DNA of 39,588 bases, from IMG/VR virus record IMGVR_UViG_3300021085_002095, positions 1-39,588 of that record, one strand, 5' to 3'. The translations under genes and the position numbers were made by a program. The notes beneath the pieces were generated by a model. The model had not been told where the DNA came from and did no database searches. It saw only the letters and a list, made by a program, of their open reading frames with translations. Numbering within the stretch: position 1 is the first letter of the stretch; every line of letters starts with the position of its first letter. Shown here one piece after another: positions 18,069 to 39,588 of the stretch. Source of the stretch: a virus.

Positions 18069-18419
18069 ATGGACGAACGTCTTGAGAAAGCGTTAGAGTT
18101 TAGCAATTACACTTTAACACTTAACAATCAGAAACGAAATATTAAAAACAGAGTAGCACAGTTACAATTAGTGCATCACCAAGCTGGTGTGTTTATTGCA
18201 GATCAAGAAACAATTGCATTTGTAAAAACATTAATTGACCTTGACAAAAATAAAAATGTAGTCTTAATTGATTCAAAAGATAATCCAGTTCAAGTAGCTG
18301 ACTTAAAAGAACTACTGGATAAATTAGTAGATCAGTATATTAGTGCTACACAAGAGTATGATGTTGAATACCAAAAACTACGAAAGTCTAGAAGTATCAA
18401 AACAATAATGGATTGGTAA
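18069..18419 (+). CDS. Conserved small helical protein of unknown function
   Basis: A 116-residue, charged, mostly helical protein with no signal peptide or membrane segment. Visible blocks are ALEFSNYTLTLNNQKRNIKN near the N-terminus, AFVKTLIDLDKNKNVVLIDS in the middle and YDVEYQKLRKSRSIKTIMDW at the end; the last 45 residues look coiled-coil-like. I recall similar small proteins in marine T4-like phages with no assigned role. It is the first gene after the promoter region, with a strong ribosome binding site, and its stop overlaps the next ATG by 1 nt, so it is translationally tied to the glycosyltransferase genes. It could be a chaperone or regulator, but nothing shows this. Confidence 0.6.
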   Translation: MDERLEKALEFSNYTLTLNNQKRNIKNRVAQLQLVHHQAGVFIADQETIAFVKTLIDLDKNKNVVLIDSKDNPVQVADLKELLDKLVDQYISATQEYDVEYQKLRKSRSIKTIMDW

Positions 18420-19327
18420 TGAGCGAATACAAAGTGCAACCATACAAAGAAGATGAAGGAGTATGCTTCTTTGTTTATAACAATGAGCATTTAGATTATG
18501 TTGACTTGGCAATACTTGCTTCTCGATATGTTAAAGAATATCTTGACTTACCAGTTTGTATAATCACTGATGCTGGAACTTATGCATGGATGAAACAGTC
18601 GCAAGAAGATGATGTTATTAATGAGTGTTTTGATTATATAAAAATAACAGAAGATGAATTCAGACCCAATGAGCGTAGACACTACGACAGTCCATGGACA
18701 GAATTCAAAGCACAGTTCAGTAACAGCAACAAGCATAAGATATGGGAATACAGTCCATTTTCAAAAACACTATTGCTTGATACTGACTACATTGTAAAGA
18801 ATGAATTCCTACTACGTAGTATGGCATACGAGGGTGTTGCAATGTTTAACAATGCCGTAAGTGCCAGAAATGATAGCCCACACATAAACGAAGTGTTGTT
18901 ATACCCAGGTGGTGTTAAAATGTGGTGGAGCACAGTTGTATATTTTGATCGTAGTGAATTTAGTAAAATATTTTTTGAGTTATGGGCTCATGTTGCAGAG
19001 AACTACGAGTTCTATCAATTCTTATATAATTTTCCAAACAATTTATTCAGAACAGATTATTGTGTAAGCATTGCTGTTCATATACTAAATGGCATGGAAG
19101 AAGGTGATGTTGTTCATAACTTTGATGACCAACCAATGTATTATCTATCGCAAAAAGATGATATTGTTGATGTTAACAATTTACAAGATTGGATATGCCT
19201 TGGCAATGACACAAAAGAAGAATGGAAGAACATATTAATCAAGCATAAAAATTTAGACTTACACGTTATGAACAAACGTGCATTATCGAGAGTAAAGCCA
19301 AAACTTATGGAGTTCTTTGATGAGTAA
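18419..19327 (+). CDS. GT-A type glycosyltransferase-like protein
   Basis: A 302-residue protein with the layout of nucleotide-sugar glycosyltransferases: an N-terminal FFVYNNEHLDYVDLAILASR (about residues 14-33) with a Rossmann-like start, then SPFSKTLLLDTDYIVKNE, where D121-T-D123 is the DxD that binds metal and nucleotide sugar. The acidic pair at the end of a hydrophobic strand is the main evidence. An in-frame TTG at 18413 exists, but ATG 18419 overlaps the upstream stop by 1 nt (TAATG) and is preferred. Sugar donor and acceptor unknown. The next gene looks like a diverged relative. No transmembrane segment, so it is presumably cytoplasmic. Confidence 0.65.
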   Translation: MSEYKVQPYKEDEGVCFFVYNNEHLDYVDLAILASRYVKEYLDLPVCIITDAGTYAWMKQSQEDDVINECFDYIKITEDEFRPNERRHYDSPWTEFKAQFSNSNKHKIWEYSPFSKTLLLDTDYIVKNEFLLRSMAYEGVAMFNNAVSARNDSPHINEVLLYPGGVKMWWSTVVYFDRSEFSKIFFELWAHVAENYEFYQFLYNFPNNLFRTDYCVSIAVHILNGMEEGDVVHNFDDQPMYYLSQKDDIVDVNNLQDWICLGNDTKEEWKNILIKHKNLDLHVMNKRALSRVKPKLMEFFDE

Positions 19328-20171
19328 TGAAATTATTGCCGAGAACGGCTATGTAATTATAGCTGTCAATCCTATTGAGTTTAGACAAGCACAATGTTGT
19401 GCATTTTCAATTAAGAGCAAGATGCCAGATGCTAGTGTTACACTAGTAGTTCCAGACAGCAATAAAGTAGAACGTTCTTTTCTGGAAGGGTTTGATGCAG
19501 TTGCAGACTTACCATATAAACAACACACAACATGTAGACAAAATGATTGGCAGTTATACTGGTGTAGTCCATATGAGAATACAATAGCTATAGATTGTAA
19601 ATCGTTAGTCAAAGACGATCAAACCAGCATGTGGGAATATCTAATAGATCACTATGACATTGTATTTCCAGATGCAGTTAATGATATTAGAAAAAACAAA
19701 ATTAGTTTAAAATATCAAAACAGTCTACAAAGTGAATACAACTTAAATGTAGTTTATACTAACATGTTCTTCTTCAAAAAGAATGAAGTAGCACTACGTC
19801 ATTTTAAATTAGCAGATGTGTATTTTCAATACTGGAAAGATGCTTGTGTTAAATTTTTACAACCTCAACACATACCAGACTTCTTTGATGCTGATGTTAT
19901 GCACTCACTTGTTGCTACACATACAGGCGACGATACAGTTGCACAACACAACGTATTACAATATATTGATATGAAGAATAGTGTAGTGTCAGGTGCATTA
20001 GGTAAAATAAACAAGTGGACTGATAAGTTGAACATTTGGTCAAGTGCTAATGGAAAAATAAAAATCCAAAACTATGCAGTCAATGGAACACTAAGTTACC
20101 ATGAGAATGAATTCTTAACAGACGAAATATTTAATGAGCAACGCAACTACTACAGCACCATCACAAAGTAA
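19320..20171 (+). CDS. Diverged glycosyltransferase-like protein with altered DxD
   Basis: A 283-residue protein starting at ATG 19320, inside the end of the previous gene (ATGAGTAA overlap); the frame also has a TTG three bases earlier. It follows the same plan as its upstream neighbour: an N-terminal VIIAVNPIEFRQAQCCAFSI strand-helix unit, a middle YKQHTTCRQNDWQLYWCSPY and the strand SPYENTIAIDCKSLVKDD. There the DxD of the neighbour (DTD) reads D92-C-K94, so the second acidic residue is gone. It may be metal independent, a non-catalytic partner of the neighbour, or decayed. The frame is intact. Glycosyltransferase assignment is by comparison with the neighbour only. Confidence 0.5.
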   Translation: MSNEIIAENGYVIIAVNPIEFRQAQCCAFSIKSKMPDASVTLVVPDSNKVERSFLEGFDAVADLPYKQHTTCRQNDWQLYWCSPYENTIAIDCKSLVKDDQTSMWEYLIDHYDIVFPDAVNDIRKNKISLKYQNSLQSEYNLNVVYTNMFFFKKNEVALRHFKLADVYFQYWKDACVKFLQPQHIPDFFDADVMHSLVATHTGDDTVAQHNVLQYIDMKNSVVSGALGKINKWTDKLNIWSSANGKIKIQNYAVNGTLSYHENEFLTDEIFNEQRNYYSTITK

Positions 20172-21108
20172 AAAGTGGTATATTCGATTTAATAAAAACT
20201 CAGGCAAAATACTGAGCATTGGCCCACGACAGTTTGTTACTACAAACGAAGATGAAGAAGTAACTGCTTCTACAAATTCTATATGTAAACATTTAATAAC
20301 AGGCAAGAAAAAGATTAACAAGTATGCAGTTCATTGGGATATCTTTAATGAAGCCTGGGACATTGATGTTAAAAGTTCTACACTAGAATTAAAAACAAAC
20401 GGCGAAAAGCTAAACCAGGCATTAGAAAGAGACCCAAGTATATGTGATGTGTATATTAAAGTTATACGTGCAACCAACACAATTAAGATGGAAATTAATT
20501 TAACCACAATTAAAAAATCATTGAACCTGGGACAAATCAATAGTATCAAGCAAGATAACACAAGCATACTAGATCTTTATCTTTGTAGGAAGAATGATCC
20601 AGATTATATGATAGGAGTTATTCCAGTTGATGCAATTAAATTTATTAACGACAGGCATCTTTATATACAAGTTCCACCTGAGGTAACACGTCATATTAAT
20701 AGTTGGGATGAGATAAGTTTCTTTACCAAGCCTGTGTTTGAAACATATGGTATTGAATTTAGTGATGTTGCACTATCAGAAAAAGATGACAACAACCAAC
20801 GCACACATCAAATTGCAAACAGAGGTGAAACAGCACACATAAATATGTATACATTAAATGATAAGTTAATTATTAAGAGTGAAGTCGGTCCAGATACAAT
20901 GTATTACTTTGATAACAAACCTAAGTTAGAATTACATGTATCAGACACAGAAGTTGACAACTATGTCAACACATTAAGATTTCAAACTTCTAAGTTACTT
21001 AATAATAAGATAGAAATAGACTTGCCGGATAATTGGCCAGTTGATCCTATAATTACATTTAAGAACAAAAAGTTAACAGTGAATTACTACGGAGAAAAGA
21101 ATGAGTAA
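20134..21108 (+). CDS. Unrecognised protein in glycosyltransferase block
   Basis: A 324-residue protein I do not recognise. It begins KKWYIRFNKNSGKILSIGPR after a short Thr/Ser-rich leader, and continues with many alternating beta-like segments (AWDIDVKSSTLELKTNGEKL; KLIIKSEVGPDTMYYFDNKP; KKLTVNYYGEKNE). There is no cysteine motif, membrane segment or clear catalytic motif. The ATG at 20134 lies 38 nt inside the previous gene, the longest overlap in the operon; a later start is possible but none is better supported. It ends in ATGAGTAA overlapping the next glycosyltransferase. Beta-rich character suggests a structural or binding protein, possibly an acceptor for the surrounding enzymes, but that is a guess. 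Confidence 0.5.
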   Translation: MSNATTTAPSQSKKWYIRFNKNSGKILSIGPRQFVTTNEDEEVTASTNSICKHLITGKKKINKYAVHWDIFNEAWDIDVKSSTLELKTNGEKLNQALERDPSICDVYIKVIRATNTIKMEINLTTIKKSLNLGQINSIKQDNTSILDLYLCRKNDPDYMIGVIPVDAIKFINDRHLYIQVPPEVTRHINSWDEISFFTKPVFETYGIEFSDVALSEKDDNNQRTHQIANRGETAHINMYTLNDKLIIKSEVGPDTMYYFDNKPKLELHVSDTEVDNYVNTLRFQTSKLLNNKIEIDLPDNWPVDPIITFKNKKLTVNYYGEKNE

Positions 21109-22087
21109 CATGCAGAGCATTAATGAATTTGATATTGTATATATCAGTTATGACGAACCAAATGCAGATGAGAACTATGCAGACTTGCTAGACAAATGCC
21201 CATGGGCTAAACGTAGTCATGGCGTAGAGGGAAGTGATGCAGCACACAAGGCCGCAGCACAGATGGCAGAGACTGATAGGTTTATTACAATTGATGCAGA
21301 CAACATTGTGCATGATGCTTTCTTTAGTGTCGAAGTAGACATGGATAAGATTGGTGAAACTGATGTTATTAGTTGGGCTGGCAAGAACATTACCAATGGA
21401 CTTGTATACGGCAACGGTGGTATCAAGTGTTGGCCAAAGCCTGTTGTTATGAATATGAAAACACATGAGAATGCACCAGCTGGCGACAAACGAGCTCAAG
21501 TAGATTTCTGTTGGAACATTAACTACGTGCAAATGAATAATATCTATTGCACAGTAATGAACAATGGTAGTCCACTACAAGCATGGCGAGCCGGCTTCCG
21601 TGAAGGTGTTAAGATGGGATTAGTAGATGGCGATGTAATTGATCCAAGCGAACTAAAGGATCGTGTGCATAGCAAAAACTATAAACGTTTGTTAACATGG
21701 ATGAGCGTTGGTGACGATAGTGAGAATGGCATATGGGCAATATATGGCGCACGTCTAGGATGCCATATGACAAACATTACTAGAACAGAATGGGATTGGA
21801 AAAACGTTAGAGACTTTAACTGGCTTACTAATTATTTTAATCAAGAAGTATTGCCACAGTTTCAAGACAATCCAGATCAACTATGTAAACGCACAGGAAC
21901 ACAATGGAATTACAAAGCAGTAGAAGATTCGGCAATTGAACTTGGCATTGACCTACGCAAACGATTACATCTGGAAATTGCAGACTTAGGTAAAGAGGGC
22001 AGTGCTTTCTTTAAAGAAGTTTACATTAACCCAAGTCGTATGGGAGCACAAATTAGAGAAGACCAAGTAGAAGATACATTAGAATAA
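21101..22087 (+). CDS. GT-A type glycosyltransferase
   Basis: A 328-residue protein of a glycosyltransferase-like family seen in phages and marine bacteria, opening with FDIVYISYDEPNADENYADL. This is followed by CPWAKRSHGVEGSDAAHKAA and the strand RFITIDADNIVHDAFF, where D65-A-D67 is the DxD. Later come NGLVYGNGGIKCWPKPVV (residues about 100-117) and HSKNYKRLLTWMSVG, typical acceptor-side features. It overlaps its upstream neighbour by 8 nt and is followed 3 bp later by a radical SAM gene. The donor sugar is not predictable. Likely acts in the cytoplasm with the neighbouring modifying enzymes. Confidence 0.72.
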   Translation: MSNMQSINEFDIVYISYDEPNADENYADLLDKCPWAKRSHGVEGSDAAHKAAAQMAETDRFITIDADNIVHDAFFSVEVDMDKIGETDVISWAGKNITNGLVYGNGGIKCWPKPVVMNMKTHENAPAGDKRAQVDFCWNINYVQMNNIYCTVMNNGSPLQAWRAGFREGVKMGLVDGDVIDPSELKDRVHSKNYKRLLTWMSVGDDSENGIWAIYGARLGCHMTNITRTEWDWKNVRDFNWLTNYFNQEVLPQFQDNPDQLCKRTGTQWNYKAVEDSAIELGIDLRKRLHLEIADLGKEGSAFFKEVYINPSRMGAQIREDQVEDTLE

Positions 22088-22090
22088 GAT

Positions 22091-23443
22091 ATGGCAGATA
22101 CCAAAACTAATTGGGAAGAACATTATGGAGATACCTTCTGTGTTTACCCATGGCTCAGCTTAATGGTTAATACAAGTGGAAGCATTGACTTTTGTTGTAT
22201 TGCAAAGCCAAGTGTTCTACGAGACCAGGATGGAAAGATATTAGATATCAGCACCACTACTCTCAAAGAAGCATGGAACAGCGATGCTATGAAAGACCTT
22301 CGACTTGGTATGATACAAGGTGAACAGATTAGTAGTTGTAAGCATTGTTACCTACAAGAAGAAGTAGGTAAAAAAAGTTTTAGACAAATGCACAACGAAG
22401 AATGGGAACGTAGAATTGGTGCAGATGCAATACACGAACGGGTTAAGGCAAGCTATGATAACGACATGGGACTACCTGACCACGATCCGGTATACTTAGA
22501 TTTAAGACTGGGTAACCTATGTAACCTTAGTTGTAGAATGTGTAATAGTTTTAACAGTAGCACAATTGCAAAAGAAAATAAGCAACTAGAAGAACTAGAA
22601 CCTGAATACAAAAAGATACAAGAAAAAACATATGGCAAAACTCCAGACTGGGTATACAGCAAAGAGTATAGAGATAAATTTGATGCTGATGTTTTTTGGA
22701 AAGATATCTATGCATGGCTTCCAGACTTGAGAAAAGTTTACATGACAGGTGGCGAGCCTACTATGATTAAGAACAACATGGACTTCTTAGACTTTGCTGC
22801 AGACAATGGACATGCTGAACACATAACAGTATTCATGAACACAAATTGCACAAACGCTAATCCAAAATTCCTAAACAGCATAAGCAAATATGAAAGTGTA
22901 GATATTAATGCCAGCCTTGATGGTGTAGGCAATGTAAACGAATTCATACGTGGAACTAAGAGTTGGGATATCATTCTTAGAAACTATCGTGCTATGTTAG
23001 ACAAGCCAAATGTTAACAGTAACATTACTCCAGTGCTACAAATATATAATTTAAATCGTATACACGAAGTATTATACTTAGCAGCAGAACTAACAGATGA
23101 ATATTATCCAAACCACGATTGGAAAACAATTGGTGTAGATATATTAATAAACACGCATCCAAATTATTTAGACATACGTAATCTTACAGTTGAACAACGA
23201 GCACCTGCATTAAAAAGATTACAAGAGTTTTCAGTTACATGCAAATATCTATACGAGAAGAATTGGTTAGTTAAGAATAGTGTAGACGGTATCATCAGTT
23301 ACTTACAGCAACCTCAATTAGAAAACTGGCACGAAAACTTAACAGAGTTTGTTACATTAACCCAAGTATGGGATCGTAAACGTAACACAAACTTTAGTAT
23401 TATAGACGACGAACTATATCAATCTATAAAAGAGATGTTATAA
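22091..23443 (+). CDS. Radical SAM protein with N-terminal auxiliary Fe-S (twitch/SPASM-like) motif
   Basis: A 450-residue radical SAM enzyme. The core motif CxxxCxxC is C144-NLS-C148-RM-C151 after LDLRLGNL, followed by the SAM-binding TGGEPT near 219-224. Before the core lies a second cysteine set: C17 in FCVYPWLSL, C35-C36, and C83-KH-C86 followed by EEVGKKSFRQ. This looks like an auxiliary cluster site of the twitch/SPASM type, but on the N-terminal side of the core. Such proteins are called twitch-domain radical SAM proteins in phage annotation. Abstraction of hydrogen by a 5'-deoxyadenosyl radical is known for the superfamily; the substrate (peptide or sugar) is unknown. It forms a tandem pair with the next gene, overlapping by 1 nt. 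Confidence 0.88.
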   Translation: MADTKTNWEEHYGDTFCVYPWLSLMVNTSGSIDFCCIAKPSVLRDQDGKILDISTTTLKEAWNSDAMKDLRLGMIQGEQISSCKHCYLQEEVGKKSFRQMHNEEWERRIGADAIHERVKASYDNDMGLPDHDPVYLDLRLGNLCNLSCRMCNSFNSSTIAKENKQLEELEPEYKKIQEKTYGKTPDWVYSKEYRDKFDADVFWKDIYAWLPDLRKVYMTGGEPTMIKNNMDFLDFAADNGHAEHITVFMNTNCTNANPKFLNSISKYESVDINASLDGVGNVNEFIRGTKSWDIILRNYRAMLDKPNVNSNITPVLQIYNLNRIHEVLYLAAELTDEYYPNHDWKTIGVDILINTHPNYLDIRNLTVEQRAPALKRLQEFSVTCKYLYEKNWLVKNSVDGIISYLQQPQLENWHENLTEFVTLTQVWDRKRNTNFSIIDDELYQSIKEML

Positions 23444-24738
23444 TGGCACAAGACTTTTTAGAAGATTACGGAAAAGATTTCTGTATACTGCCATGGATAC
23501 ATATGGCAACACACACTGACGGCACTGCATTACTATGTTGTGTTGCACAGAAGCCACCAGACGAAAGAGTAAACTTAAATCATACAACAGTAGATGGTAT
23601 ATGGAATAGTTACTATTGGAAGAAAGCCAGACTGGCTATGCTCGACGAGCAAAAACTAAAAGCATGTTCTCATTGTTACAAAGAAGAAGTAGCTGGTATT
23701 AGAAGTCACAGAATGAATGAAAATAATCTGTGGACAAAGAAGCTAGGCAGAGAATACATTGACGAATTAATTGCAAGCACAAACACAGACGGTAGTTTAG
23801 ATCAAGATGTTGTTACATTAGACTTGCGTTTGGGAAACACATGTAATGTGCAATGCGTTATGTGTAGACCTACTGATTCAAGTAAGTGGGTTAAGGCTGC
23901 TGAGATAATAGCTGCAGACAGCGAAGGCGAAGTTAAAGATGATTGGGATTGGAAGATACAAGATTTCAAACGTAATAAATTTAAGTGGGCTGAAGATGAT
24001 GAGTTTTGGATTGAAGAGATTGAACCATTGCTGCCTACCATGCGTCATTTTATATTTGCAGGTGGTGAACCGCTATACCTAAAGAACCACAAACGTTTTT
24101 TAAAGATGTGTGTTGAGAGTGGACATGCAGAACACATAGAACTACGTTACCATACTAATGGCACTATAATGCCAGACGATATAATTGAACTATGGAGTAA
24201 CTTTAAGTTTGTAGAACTAATGATTAGTATTGATGGTATAGGCGAAATGAATAAATGGCTACGCTATCCAACTGAATGGGAAACAGTAGAACAAACATTA
24301 GACAAAGTAGAGAACTCGCCACATGATAATATTGTAGGTAAAGTATTGTGTACCGTTAGTGCATTAAACATTTGGTATCTCCCAGACTTTGCTGAGTTCT
24401 TAATTTCAAAACAATACAAAAAGATTGGAGCACAAGACCACCATGGTGTGTTTCATCCAGGCATATTACATTGGCCTACTTACCTATGCACAAAAGTTTT
24501 ACCAACTGGACTTAAAGAAGAAATAACAAACAAGATGCAGAAGTTGTTAGACGCATACCCCGACAATCCAAAAATACAAGAACTAAAAAATATTGTAAAC
24601 TTTATGAACGAAGAAGACCACAGTCATAGTTGGCCTGCATTAAACAAATACATACATTCGTTAGATAAGATGCGTGGCACAGACTTTAAACAAGACTTTG
24701 CTTCGTTGTATGAGATATGGAAAAAGTATGAAGTTTGA
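23443..24738 (+). CDS. Second radical SAM protein with N-terminal auxiliary Fe-S motif
   Basis: A 431-residue paralogue of the gene before it, with the same order of parts. The auxiliary cysteines are C14 in FCILPWIHM, C32-C33 and C75-SH-C78, followed by EEVAGIRSHR. The core is C134-NVQ-C138-VM-C141 after LDLRLGNT, and the GGEP motif is AGGEPLYL near 206-213. Both proteins also share a GHAEHI block about 20-30 residues after GGEP. The two differ most in the C-terminal third, which would fit different substrates in one pathway. The start ATG overlaps the preceding TAA by 1 nt. Both would need host SAM and iron-sulfur assembly. Confidence 0.88.
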   Translation: MAQDFLEDYGKDFCILPWIHMATHTDGTALLCCVAQKPPDERVNLNHTTVDGIWNSYYWKKARLAMLDEQKLKACSHCYKEEVAGIRSHRMNENNLWTKKLGREYIDELIASTNTDGSLDQDVVTLDLRLGNTCNVQCVMCRPTDSSKWVKAAEIIAADSEGEVKDDWDWKIQDFKRNKFKWAEDDEFWIEEIEPLLPTMRHFIFAGGEPLYLKNHKRFLKMCVESGHAEHIELRYHTNGTIMPDDIIELWSNFKFVELMISIDGIGEMNKWLRYPTEWETVEQTLDKVENSPHDNIVGKVLCTVSALNIWYLPDFAEFLISKQYKKIGAQDHHGVFHPGILHWPTYLCTKVLPTGLKEEITNKMQKLLDAYPDNPKIQELKNIVNFMNEEDHSHSWPALNKYIHSLDKMRGTDFKQDFASLYEIWKKYEV

Positions 24739-25609
24739 TCTAATACTTGGAGATAACAGTAGTAAGCATACAGTATTAAAGTGTGATATATTTCAGCATG
24801 AGTATTTAGATATTTTTCAGAATGAGCCTACTATGTGCGAATGGAATTTATACAATGATAAATCAGCACAGCTACAGAAGTTATCCAACGAGTTGAAAAA
24901 ATTAATAGACACATGGAACACACATGGTATACATCAACTTGATACCAGTGAGTTTTATTTGTTTAGTGATGACTCGGCTGCCGCTTCAATGAAACTGCAT
25001 CAAGATATTCTTAATCCATTACAGTCAAGTATTATAACTGCATACAGAGATCTAAACGATAACAGTCAAGTAGAACACACTGAAGAACTAGTAGTTATGT
25101 TTAGAAAACTAAATCTAATAAGAGATATAGTTTCACACTTGTCTGTAGATTTAGATTCTCAACAGTTTCAACTTGCGTTTGAAAGTGATTATAAGTTATT
25201 TGAAGATGACGACTTTGCAAGATTTAGTTTTGCTCGCAACCCAGGTGAAATATTTTTAGCACCAACTGACATTTCATATAACTATGATAATTTAATTATT
25301 GAAGAAAAGTCAGCATACGAAATAGATATGCAAGCTATTAGAATGACGCCAGGTGGCACAGACCTAATAGGACAACAAACATACTATGGTGGTAACTTAA
25401 TTTTTTGGTGTGGTGCAAGTAGAACACATGAAGAAACAGTTAATCAAATCAATTACTCATTAGAAAAAGCATGGGGTGGGTATACACTAAATGCACAAGA
25501 CTTGCGTAACAAATGGAATATGTTAACTACTGGTATGATTAAGGTTGGAAGTTTTAATAAGGTTCCTGACTTAGAGTTTAACGAGGTGATAGGTTATGTT
25601 ATCCAGTAA
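24728..25609 (+). CDS. Unrecognised protein between radical SAM genes
   Basis: A 293-residue protein with ATG at 24728, 11 nt inside the previous gene; the frame is open further upstream, but that would mean a much longer overlap. Not recognised. It is acidic, starts MKFDLILGDNSSKHTVLKCD, has a helical middle (ELVVMFRKLNLIRDIVSHLS) and a C-terminal part GGNLIFWCGASRTHEETVNQ and WGGYTLNAQDLRNKWN. No CxxxCxxC, DxD or membrane segment. It lies between three radical SAM genes, so it could be a partner, a carrier or a substrate. Nothing in the sequence chooses among these. Confidence 0.55.
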   Translation: MKFDLILGDNSSKHTVLKCDIFQHEYLDIFQNEPTMCEWNLYNDKSAQLQKLSNELKKLIDTWNTHGIHQLDTSEFYLFSDDSAAASMKLHQDILNPLQSSIITAYRDLNDNSQVEHTEELVVMFRKLNLIRDIVSHLSVDLDSQQFQLAFESDYKLFEDDDFARFSFARNPGEIFLAPTDISYNYDNLIIEEKSAYEIDMQAIRMTPGGTDLIGQQTYYGGNLIFWCGASRTHEETVNQINYSLEKAWGGYTLNAQDLRNKWNMLTTGMIKVGSFNKVPDLEFNEVIGYVIQ

Positions 25610-31015: not shown

Positions 31016-31016
31016 T

Positions 31017-32345
31017 ATGAGAGTTACTAAGAAAATGTTAAAGAACGGCTACACTGGTCCAGGTGAACTGGATGATACAGTAGCAGAGTTTCGCGATGGT
31101 AATAAGCATGGACTTGGTATTGACAGCACAGTAGCAGGTGAATACAAAGATAATAAGTTACACGGCTATGCAGTAAGCAAGCTAACTGGTAACATTAATT
31201 ATTACACCGAAGGTAAGATAACAGAACAATTAGTTACACAATATCCAAATGGTAACGTGTGGATAGGTGATGGAGACCAAGGTATATTTGTTATGCTAGA
31301 TGGAACTGTAAGTCACACAAAGCCAGAATATATTATGAACCCTGTTCTTGTATTAACCAGTGACATGGAATTTAAACGCATGGGTATGGTTGAACTTAAA
31401 GACTTGCAAATTGATTTTACTGGTTGGTATTGTCCAATTTATAAAAGTATAATTAATATCTCACCAGTGGGAGAAATTCAAAGTGGAGTATGTGGAAACA
31501 TAAGACACAACAACTGGAAGATAGAGCCTTGGCAGAAACTAGATAAACTAGAATTTAAAACTCCTGATACTTGTGGAATAGGAACTTGTTTTTGTGATGC
31601 TGATATACTTCAAGCAAAAGGAATCAACAAACAAGCATATGATTTGCTTTACAATAAAAAAGATATGGAACCTTGGCAAGTAGATTCATTGCCTGTTGTT
31701 ACTGCTGAAGATACTATTATTGGCATTGACAGATTTGGCAAAGCTAGAATGAGCGAAGTTCATTTTCATATTGGTAGACGTTGCAACTATGATTGCACAT
31801 ACTGTCCAGGTCCTGAACAAACAGATGGTGGCATACATGATAACTTTAGTCCTCACTTAACACTAGATGAGTTTAAACATTGCTTAAAGTTATTGCATCC
31901 ACATCTACCTACTGAGCCACACAGACGTTTATACATAACAGGTGGTGAACCTACAATCAATCCAATGCTTCCTGAATTTGTAAAACATGCAATAGGTGAT
32001 GGATATGAAGTAAGGATAAGCACAAATGGAACAGCAGGTGAACGCAGATACACAGAGCTACTAAACATGGGAGCAATGCTAGAAGTTAGTTTGCATGTTG
32101 AATTTACAATTGACAAAGTGCTAAACAGGTTAGCCAAGTTAGTTCCATTGTGGTCCAATGAAATGATAACTGTTAAATGTATGAGCTATGACGATACTGA
32201 GTTTGCAAAGAAAGTGCAAGCAATTATTCCAAAGGACAAAGACATATACTATTATCCAATATACGGCAGAGACATAGAACATAAGTATTACTATACCCGA
32301 ACAGAAGAAGAAAAAGAAACAGCAGAGATTCAATTCGATGATTAA
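31017..32345 (+). CDS. MORN-like/radical SAM protein with auxiliary Fe-S motif before the core
   Basis: A 442-residue protein of three parts. Residues 1-100 have MORN-like pieces (FRDGNKHGLGIDSTVAGEYK; KDNKLHGYAVSK; YPNGNVWIGDGDQG), like the N-terminus of the gene before. Residues 139-193 hold an auxiliary cysteine set C139, C159, C186, C191, C193 (C-x19-C, then C-x4-C-x-C). Residues about 245-420 are the radical SAM core, C256-NYD-C260-TY-C263, with T308-GGEPT and a STNGT strand. The auxiliary pattern repeats that of the 25596 gene, where it follows the core, so the domain order is swapped. It begins 1 bp after the MORN-methyltransferase gene. Substrate unknown. Confidence 0.85.
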   Translation: MRVTKKMLKNGYTGPGELDDTVAEFRDGNKHGLGIDSTVAGEYKDNKLHGYAVSKLTGNINYYTEGKITEQLVTQYPNGNVWIGDGDQGIFVMLDGTVSHTKPEYIMNPVLVLTSDMEFKRMGMVELKDLQIDFTGWYCPIYKSIINISPVGEIQSGVCGNIRHNNWKIEPWQKLDKLEFKTPDTCGIGTCFCDADILQAKGINKQAYDLLYNKKDMEPWQVDSLPVVTAEDTIIGIDRFGKARMSEVHFHIGRRCNYDCTYCPGPEQTDGGIHDNFSPHLTLDEFKHCLKLLHPHLPTEPHRRLYITGGEPTINPMLPEFVKHAIGDGYEVRISTNGTAGERRYTELLNMGAMLEVSLHVEFTIDKVLNRLAKLVPLWSNEMITVKCMSYDDTEFAKKVQAIIPKDKDIYYYPIYGRDIEHKYYYTRTEEEKETAEIQFDD

Positions 32346-33363
32346 AAAGAACATACAAAATATAGATAGGCCACACTGGGCTGGACTTTTACCTAGAGTA
32401 GAGAAAGTTGAAGCTGGCTATACTAATTTAGATCGTAATGAGAATCACGATGAAGTTCTTGCAGAGCATATACAAAAAGCAATCAAACATTTTATTCCTT
32501 TAGATAGTGCAATGTTTTATGCAGACTACTATAGATTCTATGAGATGTTTGCTGAATACTACAATTGCAACATGGATAACTTATTAATTACAGCAGGTTG
32601 CGATGAGGCTATTAGATTATCGTTTGAAGCAACACTAAGCAAAGACAGTGTGTTTCTTACTATTGCTCCTACATACAGAGGCAGCATATCTAACTCAGTT
32701 GACTTATGCGAAAACATTATCACATGCAGCGAAGATGAGGAAGATATAGTTGCACATCTAGAGAAACATAAACCAGATGTGTTTTATATATGTTCTCCAA
32801 ACAACCCAACAGGTTATGTATACTCATTTGGATTTTTAAAATATATATGTGAAACATTTCCAAACACTACTATCTTTGTTGACAACACATACAGACCTTT
32901 TTGTAATGAAAACTATCAAGCGTTAATCAATCAACCTAACTGCTTGATTGGATTTAGTTACAGTAAGAGTTGGGGACTAGCAGGTGCTAGACTAGGATTG
33001 CTACAAGGACACAAAGATATTATATCACAAGTAACTAAGATAAGAGCAAACATGAGTGTAAGTTCAATTACACTAAGACTAGCTGAGTATCTACATAACA
33101 ATCATTACATAGTAGATAAAAGTTTAGAACGCAACGTAGCCGGTATACATTACGCACATGAATACTTTAAGGATTGTAAAATTTATAGTATGCCAACACT
33201 AAACCATATTGTGTTTGAACCCACAGAAGAAATAATTAAACAGTTAGATTCTTGTAAAATACTATACGGCAAAGCCGGAGAGTTTAGTGATACTGCTATT
33301 AGGTTAACTACATTACCAGTAGAACAATTTGAGAAACTAATATGTTCAAATACCTCCAAATAG
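32338..33363 (+). CDS. PLP-dependent aminotransferase, HisC-like
   Basis: A fold-type I aminotransferase of 341 residues, the usual size of histidinol-phosphate aminotransferases. Family marks: LITAGCDEAIRLSF (cofactor phosphate loop, about residues 83-96), C152-SPNNPTG, FVDNTYRPF (the Asp that pairs with the pyridine nitrogen) and SYSKSWGLAGARLG with K210 as the Schiff-base lysine. The family moves an amino group from glutamate to a keto or aldehyde acceptor; HisC relatives also serve modified amino acids and other phosphorylated substrates. In this setting it could aminate a sugar or ulosonic acid, which is inference. The ATG overlaps the previous gene by 8 nt. Confidence 0.9.
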   Translation: MIKKNIQNIDRPHWAGLLPRVEKVEAGYTNLDRNENHDEVLAEHIQKAIKHFIPLDSAMFYADYYRFYEMFAEYYNCNMDNLLITAGCDEAIRLSFEATLSKDSVFLTIAPTYRGSISNSVDLCENIITCSEDEEDIVAHLEKHKPDVFYICSPNNPTGYVYSFGFLKYICETFPNTTIFVDNTYRPFCNENYQALINQPNCLIGFSYSKSWGLAGARLGLLQGHKDIISQVTKIRANMSVSSITLRLAEYLHNNHYIVDKSLERNVAGIHYAHEYFKDCKIYSMPTLNHIVFEPTEEIIKQLDSCKILYGKAGEFSDTAIRLTTLPVEQFEKLICSNTSK

Positions 33364-34133
33364 AAACAACTACATTCTGTAATGCAACCTGTTGGTTCTG
33401 TCCTAATCATCTGACACCAAAGGAACACATGGACATTGATCTCATATATAAGATCATCAATGACACACGTGGACACAACATTATATACAGACCGTTTGGT
33501 TTAGGTGATCCATTAGTTGATACACGTATGCCAGACATATGCAGATACATTAAACAAGACCCAACAGCTAAAGTTGAAATACACAGCAACGGCGAACCAA
33601 TGACTGCTAAGATGGAACTTAACCTTGCGCCATATGTAGACATAGTTAGGTTCAGCATTGATGGTATAACCAAAAAGACATTTGATGAAACACGTGGTAT
33701 CAAGTTTGATACTGTATATAAAAACGTTGAACGATTTATAAGTAACAACCCACAGCTAGATATAGAAGTGCGTATGATTAACTTGCCAGACACACAAGCA
33801 GAGCAAGTAGACTTTTTGGATCATTGGAATAACATTAGACCAGGGTGTGCTAAGATTACAGAACTGTATGATCATCCATGGGAAAAGCAAACTGAGAGTT
33901 TAAACTTACCTTGTAAGAAAACAGTAGACGAAGCATTTATATATGTAGATGGAACAATGTATTTGTGTCCATGGGACTTTGGTAAACGTAACCCAGTAGG
34001 TAAAGTAGATATGTTAACTAATCCGGTTGACATTTGGAACAGCAGCAAGTATAATGATTACAGAAAACTTTTAAGCAATGGACAACGTTGCGACATAGAA
34101 TTGTGTAGTAGATGTAGTGCGGTGTTTGAATGA
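33342..34133 (+). CDS. Radical SAM/SPASM protein
   Basis: A compact 263-residue radical SAM protein with a C-terminal SPASM domain. The core is C13-NAT-C17-WF-C20; the following SAM-binding motif reads FGLGDPL instead of GGEP. The SPASM cysteines are C191, C209, C250, C255 and C258 (LPCKK, YVDGTMYLCPWD, and CDIELCSRC), with the typical G-x-xYxCPWD and PVGKVD...DIWNS blocks between them. This is the ordinary domain order, similar to small SPASM enzymes found in sugar and peptide modification clusters. ATG 33342 lies 22 nt inside the aminotransferase gene, so the two are probably translated together. Confidence 0.88.
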   Translation: MFKYLQIETTTFCNATCWFCPNHLTPKEHMDIDLIYKIINDTRGHNIIYRPFGLGDPLVDTRMPDICRYIKQDPTAKVEIHSNGEPMTAKMELNLAPYVDIVRFSIDGITKKTFDETRGIKFDTVYKNVERFISNNPQLDIEVRMINLPDTQAEQVDFLDHWNNIRPGCAKITELYDHPWEKQTESLNLPCKKTVDEAFIYVDGTMYLCPWDFGKRNPVGKVDMLTNPVDIWNSSKYNDYRKLLSNGQRCDIELCSRCSAVFE

Positions 34134-36472
34134 AACTAGGAATCGTTGGCGGTGGTCGTTGGGCTAAGATAATACAAAGTGTAGCACAAAAGCATAACAC
34201 AGCTACAGAGATATACACACGTAGCGAACTTGCTACAGTAAGTAGCTTGGAAGATATAACAGCTGATCATGTATGGGTTGCCAACCTAGCAGATGATCAT
34301 TATGAAACTGTTAAGAAATTACTATTACTATCAAAGAATGTTTTGTGTGAGAAGCCATTTGTAACAACACTAGAGCAATACGACGAACTAGTTCACTTAG
34401 CTGAACTACAAGGTTGTGTTTTAAAGATTGGTTATGAATTTGCATACAGTGATGCAGTAAATAATATTGCACGTGGACTGAAAACTACAACATCTAACGC
34501 TCCAGTAATGCGTAGGCGACAAATAGATTTTACATGGCACAGTGAGAACAATGTTGGCAGACATGACTTTATGTTTGTTAGTGATCAAACGTTGTCAGTG
34601 TTTAATGACTTGGCATCACATGTGCTAATAATATTAAGAACTATATTAAACACTGTAGACTTTAAATTAACTGACATACAACAAACTGAGAATGGTGTTA
34701 GGTTTTGTATGTATGCAGGACACTTGCGTGAAACAATAATTAATGTAGACCTACAACGCAATGCTACAACATATAGACGCTTGGTAATAGATGGAGTTGA
34801 CTACGACTTTAGTTCAGACAACGAAACACTAGACAAGCAATTGATTAATTTTATGAGAGACTTGCCTAGCAGTAATGAAGCACAACTCACACGTTGGATT
34901 GATAGACTTGTGTTAGACGGAGTAGATACATTACGTGAACAACACTTAGACATTGTTAGATATAATAAACTAAACAATATCAAAGACATAGTAGGTATAT
35001 ATGTAACTAAGTTATTGATAGACAACGGACTGATTGCTAGTAGATATGATAAACAACTAGACACTTACTTACAACACAGTGTTGATATTATTGAATGTTA
35101 CAAGCACAATCCATTTGTAACACAACAAGAAATATATTTCAAGTTAAATATTGCACACGACGATCTTGTAAAACTTAATCTTGTGTTGCAGAAATGCGAC
35201 TTCGTGCAAGAATGTATTGTAAATGATATACGCAATGCTCAGTATTGGAATAATACAATTATACCATTAACACAAAGCGGCACAGTAGATCGTGTAGTAA
35301 ACAATGAATATGGTTACCCACTACGCATAGGATTGCACATAGGACAAAGTTGTATGTTCTGGTGTCACTTCTGTGGACGCAACATGGATACTAATGCAGC
35401 ATACAAGAAGCCACAGCTACGTGCAACTACACCTGACTTGGTTAACTTACTACAGACTGCACCAAACGATGATCCATATAGATTTTATCTAAGTGGTGGA
35501 TTGGAAACATTAACTAATCCAGACCTAATGAAATTGATTACAGCAGGTTATGAACGAGGCTTTAAGTTTAGTTTATACACAAACGGCTTTATGTTAACTG
35601 AGAAGTTTTTGGATAACAATCCAGAACTATGGAACCTAGAAGTGTTGCGTATAAGTTTGTATGGAAGCAATGCAACAGTATACGAAGAAGTAACCAAGCA
35701 CAAGCAAGGATTCAAACGTGTTAAACAAAATGTTATTGACTTTCTAAAATATAGAAAGCGACATGACAAGACACTAAGGTTTGGATTTAATTATATAATA
35801 CTACCAGGCATGGAAGAAGATTTGTTAGAAGTAATTGACTTTGTAGAAGAAGTAAACAGAAAGTCAGACGACAGCATTGACTTTATTACACTACGAGAAA
35901 ACTTTCAAAAGCCAAATGAATTAGATACGTTTGGAGATAGAGAAGAACTCAAACGTATATTTAAAATTGTAGATGAACGTGTAGAGAAGTCTAGGGATTT
36001 GGAATACGTGCATATTGATTATGGTTATGCCTTGAACGCACTACGTGAAGGAGTAGACGCACCTACTATGCATTGTATAACAGATGAACAGATGTTACCC
36101 AAAGGCTTTCCACAGGTTGATGTTGTAGTTGATGCGTATGGTTATGTATACTTGTGTAGAGAAGCAGGCTTCTTAGATAGACCAGGCAATGATAGATTTA
36201 TTATTGGACAAGTAAACAGTGAAACAAGTTTAGAAAGTATTGTAGACGATTGGATTAAAAATGGCAAGCCAATTGATATACAAAAAGGTGATACAGAATT
36301 TATGGATAGTTATGAACACATAGTAAGTCTTGTAGTCAAGCAATGCACCAGCGACAAACAGTTTGGTATAAACAACAGCATTGGACCTATACGTGCAAAA
36401 GCACAAAGCGTAAACACGCCAAGCATACAAGCGTTCTACCAAGGAGATAAAGATGCTACAGTCAATAAGTGA
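34130..36472 (+). CDS. Gfo/Idh/MocA oxidoreductase fused to a radical SAM domain
   Basis: A 780-residue fusion. The N-terminal part (about 1-260) is a NAD(P)-dependent sugar-type oxidoreductase: MKLGIVGGGRWAK nucleotide loop, VANLADDHYETVKKLL and the CEKPF motif with K75. The next 100 residues are helical and include FVTQQEIYFKLNIAHDDLVK, winged-helix-like. The C-terminal part (about 395-740) is radical SAM: C408-MFW-C412-HF-C415 in a GLHIGQSCMF setting, then YLSGGLETLTNP in place of GGEP, a LYTNGFMLT strand and a late pair of cysteines around YVYLC. The frame is unbroken. Oxidation plus radical chemistry on one sugar is the simple reading, but this is inference. An ATGA overlap links it to the SPASM gene. 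Confidence 0.85.
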   Translation: MKLGIVGGGRWAKIIQSVAQKHNTATEIYTRSELATVSSLEDITADHVWVANLADDHYETVKKLLLLSKNVLCEKPFVTTLEQYDELVHLAELQGCVLKIGYEFAYSDAVNNIARGLKTTTSNAPVMRRRQIDFTWHSENNVGRHDFMFVSDQTLSVFNDLASHVLIILRTILNTVDFKLTDIQQTENGVRFCMYAGHLRETIINVDLQRNATTYRRLVIDGVDYDFSSDNETLDKQLINFMRDLPSSNEAQLTRWIDRLVLDGVDTLREQHLDIVRYNKLNNIKDIVGIYVTKLLIDNGLIASRYDKQLDTYLQHSVDIIECYKHNPFVTQQEIYFKLNIAHDDLVKLNLVLQKCDFVQECIVNDIRNAQYWNNTIIPLTQSGTVDRVVNNEYGYPLRIGLHIGQSCMFWCHFCGRNMDTNAAYKKPQLRATTPDLVNLLQTAPNDDPYRFYLSGGLETLTNPDLMKLITAGYERGFKFSLYTNGFMLTEKFLDNNPELWNLEVLRISLYGSNATVYEEVTKHKQGFKRVKQNVIDFLKYRKRHDKTLRFGFNYIILPGMEEDLLEVIDFVEEVNRKSDDSIDFITLRENFQKPNELDTFGDREELKRIFKIVDERVEKSRDLEYVHIDYGYALNALREGVDAPTMHCITDEQMLPKGFPQVDVVVDAYGYVYLCREAGFLDRPGNDRFIIGQVNSETSLESIVDDWIKNGKPIDIQKGDTEFMDSYEHIVSLVVKQCTSDKQFGINNSIGPIRAKAQSVNTPSIQAFYQGDKDATVNK

Positions 36473-37196
36473 TTATTGTAAAACAATAGAAGGTGATACA
36501 GTATACTGGTGCATGGGCAATGAGCCCGTGTTGCAATTGGTATTGAACTGGGCTGAGAGTTGTAAACGTTTGAACATACCCGTGTTATACGTTGCATTAG
36601 ACTTACAAACATATCACATAGTAAGTAGTTTAAAGATTCCTACAGTGTTTGTGCCACAAGGTGAACATCATGTGTTTGTTTACAAGTTTATAGTAGGACA
36701 ACAGATAATGAACGCAGGTAAGAATTGGTTCTACACAGATGTAGATTGTGTAGCACGTGTTGATTACACAACAGAAGTATCAGCATTGTTTGATGCTGGT
36801 GCTGATATGATATGTCAAAGTGTTAAACAGTATGCTTGGTTGGGTGAACCCATAGACGCACACGGCGAATACAACTGTGGAACTGGAATGTTTGGTATGC
36901 GAGCAACACAACGTAATCAAGAACTATGCGAAACAGATTACTTGTATAAGCATGGATATGCAGAAGCAGGCACGTGTCAAGCGTTTGCTAACACACATTT
37001 AAAGCACGTAGACAATATAACACTATTAGATCCTGTTAGGTATCCCACAGGACATAACTTTGATATAGATGCAGATTGGAATATATTCCATGTAACTGGA
37101 AAGTATGCATATGAGGATTGGGATAACACAAAACAATACTTGGGTGATGTTGCAAAGATCTCAAGTTTAAAACAATTGGGGTATTGGTATATATGA
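36453..37196 (+). CDS. Nucleotide-sugar glycosyltransferase-like protein
   Basis: A 247-residue GT-A type protein. The strand GKNWFYTDVDCVARVDYTTE carries the DxD, D96-V-D98, and is followed by CGTGMFGMRATQ, the usual acceptor/donor loop of this nucleotide-diphospho-sugar transferase group; LDPVRYPTGHNFDID and IFHVTGKYAY complete the C-terminal part. A clear AAGGAG lies 6 nt before ATG 36453, which sits 20 nt inside the previous gene, so it can be translated independently of it. The sugar donor is unknown; the UXS-like gene next door makes a UDP-pentose one candidate, and KDO-type sugars another. Confidence 0.7.
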   Translation: MLQSISDYCKTIEGDTVYWCMGNEPVLQLVLNWAESCKRLNIPVLYVALDLQTYHIVSSLKIPTVFVPQGEHHVFVYKFIVGQQIMNAGKNWFYTDVDCVARVDYTTEVSALFDAGADMICQSVKQYAWLGEPIDAHGEYNCGTGMFGMRATQRNQELCETDYLYKHGYAEAGTCQAFANTHLKHVDNITLLDPVRYPTGHNFDIDADWNIFHVTGKYAYEDWDNTKQYLGDVAKISSLKQLGYWYI

Positions 37197-38128
37197 AAAT
37201 ATTAATAACAGGTGCCGCAGGCTTATTGGGAACAGAACTAACAAAGCAATTACTTGATGCTGGACATGAAGTAGATGCAATAGATAACTTCTACACTAGC
37301 AGTCGCGACAATATAAAACAATTTAAAGACAACGACAACTATACATTTGTGCAACATGATATAACATATCCACTGCCTAATGTATTTTGGAACCAACGTG
37401 AATGGGATCAAATATACAACTTGGCCTGTCCGGCTAGTCCTATACACTATCAACGTGACCCACAGTATACATTAGACTGTAGTTTGTTGGGTGTGCGTAA
37501 CATGTTAGCATTAGCTGAACGCATAGGTGCTGTCTTTATACAAGCAAGCACTAGCGAAACATATGGAGACCCACTGGAACACCCACAAGCGGAAACCTAT
37601 TGGGGTAATGTAAACACACTAGGACCACGTGCATGTTACGATGAAGGCAAACGAGCTGCAGAAACAATGTGTCTGTTAAGCTCAACACGGTGTCATATAG
37701 CAAGGATCTTTAATACATATGGTCCTAACATGGCATTAAACGATGGACGTGCAGTTAGTAACTTTGTAACACAAGCATTAGCTGATGAACCTATAACACT
37801 ACACGGAACTGGAAAACAAACACGCAGTTTTTGTTATGTAGAAGATACAGTGCGTGGACTAATACTATTAGCCAACAGTGAAGCAGAGGGCCCAGTTAAC
37901 ATTGGAAACCCAGATGAGATAGAATTAATTGAACTAGTAAACGAAATATTACATATAACAGCAAGCAAAAGTGAAATAAGTTGGGAACCAGCTGCTGTTG
38001 ACGACCCTGGACAACGATGTCCTGATATAAGCAAAGCCCGAGCAGTGTTAAATTGGGAGCCTACTGTAAGCAGAAGTGCTGGCCTTGGACGCACTGTTAG
38101 TGGATTTATAGAGAGAATAAGCCAATGA
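37193..38128 (+). CDS. NAD-dependent sugar decarboxylase/epimerase, UDP-glucuronate decarboxylase-like
   Basis: An extended short-chain dehydrogenase of 311 residues from ATG 37193, which overlaps the previous stop by ATGA; an in-frame TTG at 37184 is less likely. The NAD loop is MKILITGAAGLLG, with AIDNF at the end of strand 2. YNLACPASPIHYQRDP, the catalytic T120-S-E in STSETYGDP, and Y149-DEG-K153 in RACYDEGKRAAET closely follow the UDP-xylose synthase (UXS) family, which turns UDP-glucuronate to UDP-xylose. IARIFNTYGPNM and QTRSFCYVEDTVRGL complete the fold. A dTDP-glucose-4,6-dehydratase or epimerase is the alternative. Product transfer by the adjacent glycosyltransferase is inferred. 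Confidence 0.85.
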   Translation: MKILITGAAGLLGTELTKQLLDAGHEVDAIDNFYTSSRDNIKQFKDNDNYTFVQHDITYPLPNVFWNQREWDQIYNLACPASPIHYQRDPQYTLDCSLLGVRNMLALAERIGAVFIQASTSETYGDPLEHPQAETYWGNVNTLGPRACYDEGKRAAETMCLLSSTRCHIARIFNTYGPNMALNDGRAVSNFVTQALADEPITLHGTGKQTRSFCYVEDTVRGLILLANSEAEGPVNIGNPDEIELIELVNEILHITASKSEISWEPAAVDDPGQRCPDISKARAVLNWEPTVSRSAGLGRTVSGFIERISQ

Positions 38129-38472
38129 AACAAGGTAAAGTATGGGGTACTACCGAAAGTATAATACAAAACAATAGATTAGAAGTGCATAGATTAGAAT
38201 GCAATGCTGGACATCACTGTAGTGAACACTTGCATGAACACAAATGGAATGCATTTTATGTAGAAAGTGGACACCTAACAGTAATGATATGGCAACCAGA
38301 CAGCGACATTGTTGATGTAACACACTTATACAAAGGCGAAAGCACCAGTGTGCCGCCAGGCGTATACCATCAATTTGCAGTAGAAGAAGATACTATAGCA
38401 TTTGAATACTACTGGAGCGATGGTGAAGATCACATATCAGATGATATACAACGGCGGACACAAGGTGCATGA
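38125..38472 (+). CDS. Cupin-domain protein
   Basis: A 115-residue single cupin. The metal-site histidines are in CSEHLHEHKWNAFYVESG (H35, H37, H39), with the second cupin motif in VPPGVYHQF, and VESGHLTV gives the glycine-rich turn. Small cupins in sugar clusters are often isomerases, epimerases or sugar-binding proteins; the SEHLHEHKWNAFYVESG order resembles the C-terminal cupin of type II phosphomannose isomerases, but the pyrophosphorylase part is absent. ATGA overlaps join it to the UXS-like gene before and to kdsA after. It lies directly before kdsA, so supplying or binding its sugar phosphate is possible but unproven. Confidence 0.78.
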   Translation: MKQGKVWGTTESIIQNNRLEVHRLECNAGHHCSEHLHEHKWNAFYVESGHLTVMIWQPDSDIVDVTHLYKGESTSVPPGVYHQFAVEEDTIAFEYYWSDGEDHISDDIQRRTQGA

Positions 38473-39251
38473 GAATAATAGCAGGACCTTGCCAACATGA
38501 AAGCTTCGAACAAAGTTTAGCTATAGCACAGCATTGCAAACAAGTATGCGATGGTGCAGGTGTAGACTATTACTTTAAAGCAAGTTACGACAAAGCCAAT
38601 AGAACCAGCGGTGATAGTCCACGTGGACGTGGTATGCGAGCTACTATGAATGACTTTGTAGAGCTAAAGAAAGCTATACCCGGCCTAAAGATACTAACAG
38701 ACTTCCACAGTGTGTTTGATATACACTCATGGAGCGGAGTAGATGCTTGGGTAGATGCTGTTGATGTAATACAAATACCTGCATTGTTGTGTAGACAAAC
38801 AGATATAATACGAGCTGCTGTGGCTACTGATAAGATTGTAAACATTAAAAAAGGACAATTCATTGCGCCTTGGGATAGCACTAACATAGTAAACAAAGCC
38901 GATGCAGGTGATAAACTATGGATAACTGAAAGGGGAACTAGCTTTGGTTATAATAATATTATTGTCGACTATACTGGTATTATGTATATGCTTGACAACG
39001 TTGACGCTGACGTTGTGTTTGATGTTACGCACAGTGTCCAAAAGCCCGGAGGAAATAACACTAGCTCGGGCGGCAATAGTGATTATGTGCTTGGGTTGGC
39101 TCGTGGTGGGAGTGCTATTGGTGTCAGTTCCTTCTTCTTGGAAGTCCACCCTATGCCAAGCAACGCTCCATCGGACGGTGACTGTATGCTTAAACTAAGT
39201 GACTTTGAAAGGTGTGTAGATGAAATCAACCGCTATCATTATACCCGCTAG
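38469..39251 (+). CDS. kdsA: 3-deoxy-D-manno-octulosonate-8-phosphate synthase, metal-dependent type
   Basis: A 260-residue KDO-8-phosphate synthase, joining phosphoenolpyruvate and arabinose-5-phosphate. Family blocks are all present: IAGPCQHES, YFKASYDKANRTS, ILTDFHSV, VIQIPALLCRQTDII, VNIKKGQFIAPWDS, RGTSFGYNNIIVDY, FDVTHSVQKPGGN and LEVHPMPSNAPSDGD. The metal site is complete: C8, H188, E225 and D236. The spacings of 37 and 11 match those of the Aquifex metal-dependent enzyme, where the Cys replaces the Asn of the E. coli metal-free type. ATGA overlap with the cupin gene. The last 180 bases before 39180 are richer in G+C (about 52 against 35 percent just upstream by hand count). No kdsD or kdsC is seen, so arabinose-5-phosphate and the phosphatase would come from the host. 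Confidence 0.93.
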   Translation: MRIIAGPCQHESFEQSLAIAQHCKQVCDGAGVDYYFKASYDKANRTSGDSPRGRGMRATMNDFVELKKAIPGLKILTDFHSVFDIHSWSGVDAWVDAVDVIQIPALLCRQTDIIRAAVATDKIVNIKKGQFIAPWDSTNIVNKADAGDKLWITERGTSFGYNNIIVDYTGIMYMLDNVDADVVFDVTHSVQKPGGNNTSSGGNSDYVLGLARGGSAIGVSSFFLEVHPMPSNAPSDGDCMLKLSDFERCVDEINRYHYTR

Positions 39252-39588
39252 ATACAACAGCAGTCGTTTTCCCGGCAAAGCACTGGTAGAAATCGATGGA
39301 CAACCATTGGTTAAACGTGTAGCTGATAGGTGTAGAGCCAGTGGATACCCAGTGTATATCACCACAGACGACCAACGCATAGCTAATGCAGTTAACAGTG
39401 AATACACTACACTAGTAGATACAACTGAATATCGCAACGGAACTGAACGTTGTGCAGGCTTATTATCACAAGACTACATGGATGATTATACACAGTTTGT
39501 TAACGTGCAAGTGGATTTATGTGATGTAACCAGTGAAATGATTGAAAAGACTGTGTGGCATCTACAACACTACAGCATAACAACACTG
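39220..39588 (+). CDS. kdsB: CMP-KDO synthetase-like cytidylyltransferase, 3' end cut by window edge
   Basis: The first 123 residues of a CMP-KDO synthetase-like protein, starting ATG 39220 inside the end of kdsA (32 nt overlap) and running off the window without a stop. IIIPARYNSSRFPGKAL (residues 6-22) is the family CTP-binding signature; ITTDDQRIANAV and RNGTERCAG follow as expected. The magnesium-site block usually written VNVQGDEP reads VNVQVDLCDV here (residues 94-103): the Asp aligned to the metal ligand is kept, but the Gly, Glu and Pro are changed. The enzyme would activate KDO, or an amino or deoxy derivative, with CMP. Adjacent kdsA supports the assignment; the altered loop leaves a related ulosonic acid possible. 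Confidence 0.85.
   Translation, partial: MKSTAIIIPARYNSSRFPGKALVEIDGQPLVKRVADRCRASGYPVYITTDDQRIANAVNSEYTTLVDTTEYRNGTERCAGLLSQDYMDDYTQFVNVQVDLCDVTSEMIEKTVWHLQHYSITTL

Follow-up and report, generated by a model that had tools for sequence, protein, structure and literature searches.

A phage-borne island of sugar and radical SAM genes with a constant head and variable cargo

The virus record IMGVR_UViG_3300021085_002095, analyzed here over a stretch of 39,588 bases (the window), carries an island of sugar and radical S-adenosylmethionine (SAM) genes at positions 18069-39588, in which exchangeable cargo 3' of the gene o12 would make and finish an unusual sugar used by a constant head (o8-o12). 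A total of twenty-three open reading frames (ORFs), o8-o30, were found in the island, every one of them on the + strand, with spacings of -65 to +3 bp between them and a 69-bp gap ahead of o8. This agrees with a preliminary description of the DNA, which had listed 23 tightly coupled genes behind a tail module. The ORF calls are mechanical and take the first ATG, GTG or TTG as the start, so the true starts are uncertain and some of the overlaps between these ORFs are overestimated, and since o30 is cut by the contig end the island is possibly longer. Domain assignments of o13-o30 were made with Pfam and NCBIfam profiles. As part of our best overall explanation, which is held tentatively, the island may be transcribed as a single unit, in a jumbo-type phage of the T4 superfamily from an uncultured, mostly marine group.

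The constant head and its promoter

A scan of viral contigs with o12 gave matches in at least 549 encoding stretches, eighty of which were kept for a locus survey. The genes o8-o12 were observed directly 3' of tail genes and are near-invariant in the approximately eighty loci surveyed, and the content 3' of o12 is variable. The operon is headed by a sigma-70-type promoter (TTGACA-17-TATTAT, 18015..18043, + strand) that agrees with the consensus at 11 of 12 positions. A consensus sigma-70 promoter was found just 5' of o8 in 39 of the 64 distinct upstream regions, against a mean of 4.1 in shuffles, and ahead of neighbouring genes in 0-17%. This conserved promoter places the beginning of the unit at o8 and thus at 18069, where the preliminary description had put the start of the island. 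Set against radical SAM cargo, the promoter gave counts of 25/33 against 2/15, which ignore the kinship of the loci.

The region 5' of o8 is also enriched in a TAAATA core like that of T4 late promoters (40/64, versus 8 by shuffle), which often lies within or next to the sigma-70 promoter (about 40 loci), and double early and late control of this region is possible. The T4 late promoter TATAAATA is not enriched in the window, with three occurrences where seven are expected, and was rejected.

The 3' border of the head is formed by o12 (21101..22087), a glycosyltransferase of GT-A fold whose model (predicted local distance difference test score, pLDDT, 90.5) matches B4GALNT1 and other glycosyltransferases with a Z of about 10 over 141 residues at a root mean square deviation of 3.0. 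Its DxD residues, D65 and D67, are invariant in 54 aligned sequences. It is the most conserved gene, a ranking that is inflated because the loci were retrieved and ranked by similarity to o12. The first gene of the head, o8 (18069..18419), encodes a small conserved protein recognized by its recurrence in relatives. It is followed by o9 (18413..19327), a GT8/glycogenin-like glycosyltransferase with an invariant DxD in the alignment and a glycogenin profile match of only E 0.16, and by its paralogue o10 (19317..20171; hhalign 99.7%). The DxD of o10 is degenerate (DCK) in the window lineage and retained in many relatives, and o10 is possibly a pseudo-glycosyltransferase partner of o9. The remaining gene, o11 (20134..21108), is fast-evolving and appears to encode tandem beta-rich, Ig/FnIII-like domains (model pLDDT 87), for which fold searches returned weak beta-sandwich matches with a best Z of 4.9. 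Within the same tentative explanation, the head perhaps encodes two or three GT-A-type glycosyltransferases together with the beta-rich protein o11.

Conservation of the island in relatives

When viral contigs were scanned with o25 and o14, six related contigs (G001-G006) were found, on which o8-o27 recur in the same order. Two of them, G002 and G003, are near-identical to the window as far as they extend, the o13-o27 proteins of G004, G005 and G006 show about 34-79% identity to those of the window, and G001 has the same gene order with gaps. The lone strong match in GTDB was a 108-kb contig (G007:C3) with the same island in the gammaproteobacterial metagenome-assembled genome MED685. A bacterial origin of this contig was rejected as it bears tail, portal and capsid genes, and its presence in MED685 reflects either contamination or an infected cell. 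A second MED685 contig, C12, also bears an N_Twi radical SAM gene. The capsid (69%) and portal (53%) proteins of G007 are nearest to those of PA5oct-type jumbo phages; a capsid gene is missing from the window. A tblastn search of 50,697 phage records gave no match to o12, o21 or o25.

With G007 included, o13-o27 are collinear in three lineages (window/G002/G003, G004/G005/G006/G007 and G001), and pairwise dN/dS values across the island lie between 0.03 and 0.28 for G004 versus G006. The island is therefore under purifying selection in relatives. The recurrence of one gene order in independent contigs rules against scattered strays and bears out the coherent phage-borne sugar island that had been proposed. 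The strongly differing cargo of the relatives, and the separate kdsA/kdsB/cupin module described below, might suggest auxiliary metabolic genes that are loosely assembled and share no product, but this is quite improbable in view of the collinearity and selection.

Radical SAM genes of the cargo zone

Among loci with at least 6 kb downstream of o12, a radical SAM gene was found 3' of it in 37 out of 59; none was found 5' of the head in 54 loci. The CxxxCxxC motif is kept in 119 of the 121 radical SAM genes of the surveyed loci. It is also kept in all six radical SAM proteins of the window (o13, o14, o16, o22, o24 and o25), so that profiles and motif together uphold the number given in the preliminary description. 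Two of these, o13 (22091..23443; CxxxCxxC at 144) and o14 (23443..24738), belong to the N_Twi_rSAM family NF033640, with 350.9 and 375.7 bits respectively, far over its cut-off of 170 bits. The others are o16 (25596..26630; profile match), o22 (31017..32345), which combines a weak MORN match with a radical SAM domain (Pfam, NCBIfam), the radical SAM-SPASM protein o24 (33342..34133; 78-79% identity between lineages) and the fusion protein o25. In G001 (locus L020), o22 is present only as a short ORF (ORF 32, about 113 aa) that matches part of it.

The N_Twi proteins could act as SPASM-like maturases on a virion protein, in the manner of ribosomally synthesized and post-translationally modified peptides, with the sugar genes incidental or directed at the same target. 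The secondary NCBIfam matches of o13 and o14 are indeed mostly to peptide maturases, and up to 18 radical SAM matches occur on a single contig, that of G004, whose island spans about 43 kb. However, these maturase matches are far under their cut-offs, no short precursor gene was recognized, the neighbours are sugar enzymes and DesII, which o25 resembles, is a nucleotide-sugar enzyme, all of which make peptide modification improbable.

The gene next after o12 is a second o12-type glycosyltransferase in 40 loci (L032-L111); homologues of G004 genes 55 and 70 often come next. In four loci (L020, which is G001, L036, L037 and L040), DHFR and ThyA genes lie between o12 and the remaining cargo; the cargo zone therefore also accepts nucleotide-metabolism genes. 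Glycosyltransferases and radical SAM or PLP (pyridoxal phosphate) enzymes occur in phage DNA hypermodification, and DNA had been named among the possible targets of the island. This proposal found no direct support. No hydroxymethylase or other base-modification gene was recognized in the window, nor any base-modification gene near the ThyA/DHFR or ThyX-like genes of relatives, and DNA hypermodification is thus very unlikely.

The DesII-like fusion o25 and a possible sugar route

The gene o25 (34130..36472) encodes a fusion that joins two enzymes in one protein, a Gfo/Idh/MocA oxidoreductase and a DesII-like radical SAM deaminase (GFO_IDH_MocA and radical SAM profiles). The N-terminal half is of the Gfo/Idh/MocA type, and the C-terminal half matches the crystal sequence of DesII (8hzv) at E 2.5e-82, with 37.5% identity over 432 aa. 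DesII acts in the desosamine pathway of S. venezuelae (PDB 8HZV), where it deaminates TDP-4-amino-4,6-dideoxyglucose on the way to an antibiotic sugar, and o25 shares with it the cluster, SAM-binding and proton-transfer residues, as C141/C145/C148, GGLE 187-190, R238/S240/Y242, E408 and D456 are retained in five phages. The roles of these residues (cluster, SAM-binding GGLE, ribose motif and proton transfer by E408/D456) were taken from PMC11434129, where the D456A variant was inactive and E408A was not inactivated. Unlike DesII, o25 is phage-borne, is fused to a reductase, carries N/F in place of D323/Y324 and lies below the DesII equivalog cut-off. A search for DesII in cells gave no further match at E 1e-20 among 398 genomes of the phylum of MED685, and the order of MED685 gave only short matches to o25 in the Gfo/Idh region. 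The fusion has so far been found in phage contigs only.

Two further genes bear on the route. The UDP-glucuronate decarboxylase (UDP-xylose synthase, UXS) o27 (37184..38128; Epimerase/UXS) has UXS enzymes as its nearest solved structures, scoring 324 bits with human UXS1 where the family ranked after it reaches 107, and the motifs SETYGDP, YDEGK and TRSF were noticed in it by eye. The gene o23 (32338..33363) encodes a HisC-like PLP aminotransferase (Aminotran_1_2). Together with the DesII-like o25, these allow a 4-deoxy-sugar route to be written, in which the substrates, the sequence of reactions and, most of all, the acceptor are inferred from knowledge of the families. In this route, o27 would convert UDP-glucuronate to UDP-4-keto-pentose/UDP-xylose and o23, or a host enzyme, would aminate C4. 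The new amino group would then be lost through radical chemistry in the DesII half of o25 to give a 3-keto-4-deoxy sugar, whose 3-keto group would be reduced by the Gfo/Idh/MocA half to give the 4-deoxy sugar. Tailoring and sulfation may be carried out by the N_Twi and other radical SAM proteins, o21 and o18/o19, and the finished sugar would be transferred to its acceptor by o9, o12 and o26.

Other cargo genes and the kdsA/kdsB/cupin module

The sulfotransferases of the preliminary description are o18 (27167..28006; Pfam Sulfotransfer_2), for which no solved relative was found by sequence search, and o19 (27982..28758), a probable sulfotransferase without a Pfam match that is a paralogue of o18 (28% over 276 aa). 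The island of G004 adds carbamoyltransferase, APS-kinase-like and MTA/SAH-nucleosidase-like genes, and these would fit, with the sulfotransferases of the window, sulfation and the clearance of SAM by-products. The MORN-methyltransferase announced for o21 (29639..31015) stands as to its MORN repeats (Pfam), the methyltransferase-like C-terminal half being a reading of motifs by eye; a scan with o21 alone returned no additional loci. The GT-A enzymes announced at the same time are borne out for o12 by its fold and only weakly for o9 and o10 by profiles. The GT-like o26 (36453..37196) scores 20.8 bits to Nucleotid_trans, below the cut-off of 22, and o20 (28755..29639), a possible glycosyltransferase with a DxD seen by eye, has no relative on the six related contigs. 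Two proteins without assigned function, o15 (24674..25609) and o17 (26623..27195), keep their place in relatives according to the gene-order comparison.

The island of the window ends with a cupin, o28 (38125..38472; Cupin_2), KdsA (3-deoxy-8-phosphooctulonate synthase), o29 (38469..39251), and KdsB, o30 (39220..39588; NCBIfam profile), truncated at the contig end. Profile matches thus confirm these three, like the aminotransferase and the UXS-like enzyme, as they had been named. With 298.7 bits, o29 passes the KdsA equivalog NF003543 (cut-off 242), and it falls short of TIGR01362 (289.5 against 314). At least 188 viral loci contain kdsA, mostly without the radical SAM genes of the island, and among eighty kdsA loci surveyed kdsB and cupin genes were each found in 73, usually in other gene settings. 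No match to o28, o29 or o30 was found on the six related contigs, which are fragments. The kdsA/kdsB/cupin genes are a separate, widespread marine phage module that is joined to the island in the window, where they would add 3-deoxy-D-manno-octulosonic acid (Kdo). The single pathway to a sulfated, aminated ulosonic acid that had been suggested is accordingly not sustained. Nor need an aminated sugar persist, as the amino group is taken off in the DesII-like step.

The acceptor of the sugar

All steps of the route would be cytoplasmic, and the likeliest acceptor would be a phage protein (o11 or a tail protein), resulting in a glycosylated virion. No candidate membrane protein was found among the twenty-three island ORFs by a hydropathy threshold only, and therefore no recognized island product exports or ligates a polymer. 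Because of this absence, and because the head stays constant while the cargo changes, gene content leads us to favour glycosylation of a phage protein over remodelling of the host envelope with modest confidence. The o12 protein was also closer to that of the window than the tail proteins o5 and o6 in 45/45 loci, as expected if its acceptor is phage-made.

Several observations weigh on the other side. The comparison with o5 and o6 is biased as the loci were retrieved and ranked by o12, and the sigma-70 promoter suggests early transcription, which agrees no less well with remodelling of the host. Lipopolysaccharide (LPS) and capsule typically bear Kdo, sulfate and carbamoyl groups, the fold matches of o11 are weak, and the acceptor, product and expression have all been inferred from the genes. 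As o25 reaches 372.7 of the 450 bits of the DesII equivalog TIGR04426, its substrate may differ from that of DesII. DesI belongs to the DegT aminotransferase class and o23 is HisC-like, which leaves the 4-amination unsupported and the weakest link of the route.

The same enzymes may instead remodel the host envelope by placing sugars on LPS or capsule intermediates that the host exports, barring other phages or grazers. This is a real possibility, consistent with the Kdo module, the hint of early expression, the hypervariable content and the published reading of comparable islands in P-SSM2 (PMC2984593) and pelagimyophages (PMC7029224). It is less expected from the absence of any recognized flippase, polymerase, ligase, initiating transferase or candidate membrane protein in the island, and from a glycosyltransferase head that remains constant across differing cargo, where a host-specific acceptor would be involved. 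The full form of the phage-protein explanation describes a large clade of uncultured jumbo-type phages with a modular glyco-operon, in which the head would decorate the phage's own tail protein with radical-SAM-built sugars from swappable cassettes, the DesII-reductase fusion among them, producing a variable coat of sulfated deoxy-sugars on the virion. In this detail it is possible, but less likely than not.

Comparison with known systems

The preliminary description had not recognized this mix of genes. A hypervariable island beside the tail genes with glycosyltransferase and radical SAM cassettes has been published for pelagimyophages (PMC7029224), and what goes beyond the preliminary description is the chemistry of the DesII fusion and UXS, the constant promoter-led head with the variable zone behind it, and the separate standing of kdsA/kdsB/cupin. 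The island is a further form of the hypervariable host-recognition islands of marine T4-like phages. The host recognition cluster (HRC) described for pelagimyophages and cyanomyophages (PMC7029224) is likewise large and hypervariable, lies in the structural region and contains glycosyltransferases along with radical SAM cassettes. The present island differs in probably belonging to another phage branch, judging from the portal and capsid of G007, in having a conserved promoter-led glycosyltransferase head, and in keeping the order of its DesII fusion, sulfotransferases and UXS; the HRC is defined by its VrlC-gp14 position, whereas the present island is likened to it by content alone.

Cyanophage P-SSM2 carries LPS gene clusters with 24 genes (PMC2984593), which are likened by description, as phage-borne sugar genes proposed to act on a surface. 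Twelve radical SAM genes, interpreted there as Fe-S metabolism, are described in PMC5332604 for the marine T4-like environmental genome TARA_ERS488813_N000010, a likeness also drawn by description. Cyanophage S-SCSM2R has kdsA/kdsB in a region rich in glycosyltransferases, where a single radical SAM maturase and a single sulfotransferase are annotated within approximately 20 kb. Vibrio phage K566 was rejected as a parallel, as its radical SAM genes have no annotated sugar genes around them.

Genes upstream of the island

The genes 5' of the island encode baseplate and virion proteins, namely the gp25-like o2, the gp6-like o3 and o4 with 3,662 aa. The matches of o3 include Salicola phage SCTP-2 and Cronobacter phage GAP32, both of them jumbo phages. 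An HNH endonuclease ORF (3-515) lies 5' of the gp25-like gene and is perhaps a mobile insertion, since a homologue occurs at the equivalent site in G001 and G003 and was not found in G002 and G004-G006.

Significance

Little is known of glycans that phages make and carry on their own particles, and we found no pathway assigned to the abundant radical SAM genes that marine phages have. The DesII-type active site of o25 offers a first concrete, assayable reaction within such an island, and the constant head with its swappable cargo provides a testable model for phages that alter their own or the host's surface. The o12 family, with at least 549 viral loci and none in the phage records searched, points to a large group of which no relative has been deposited. 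The island suggests that this group of phages makes unusual sugars of its own, probably as a coat for the phages or their host.

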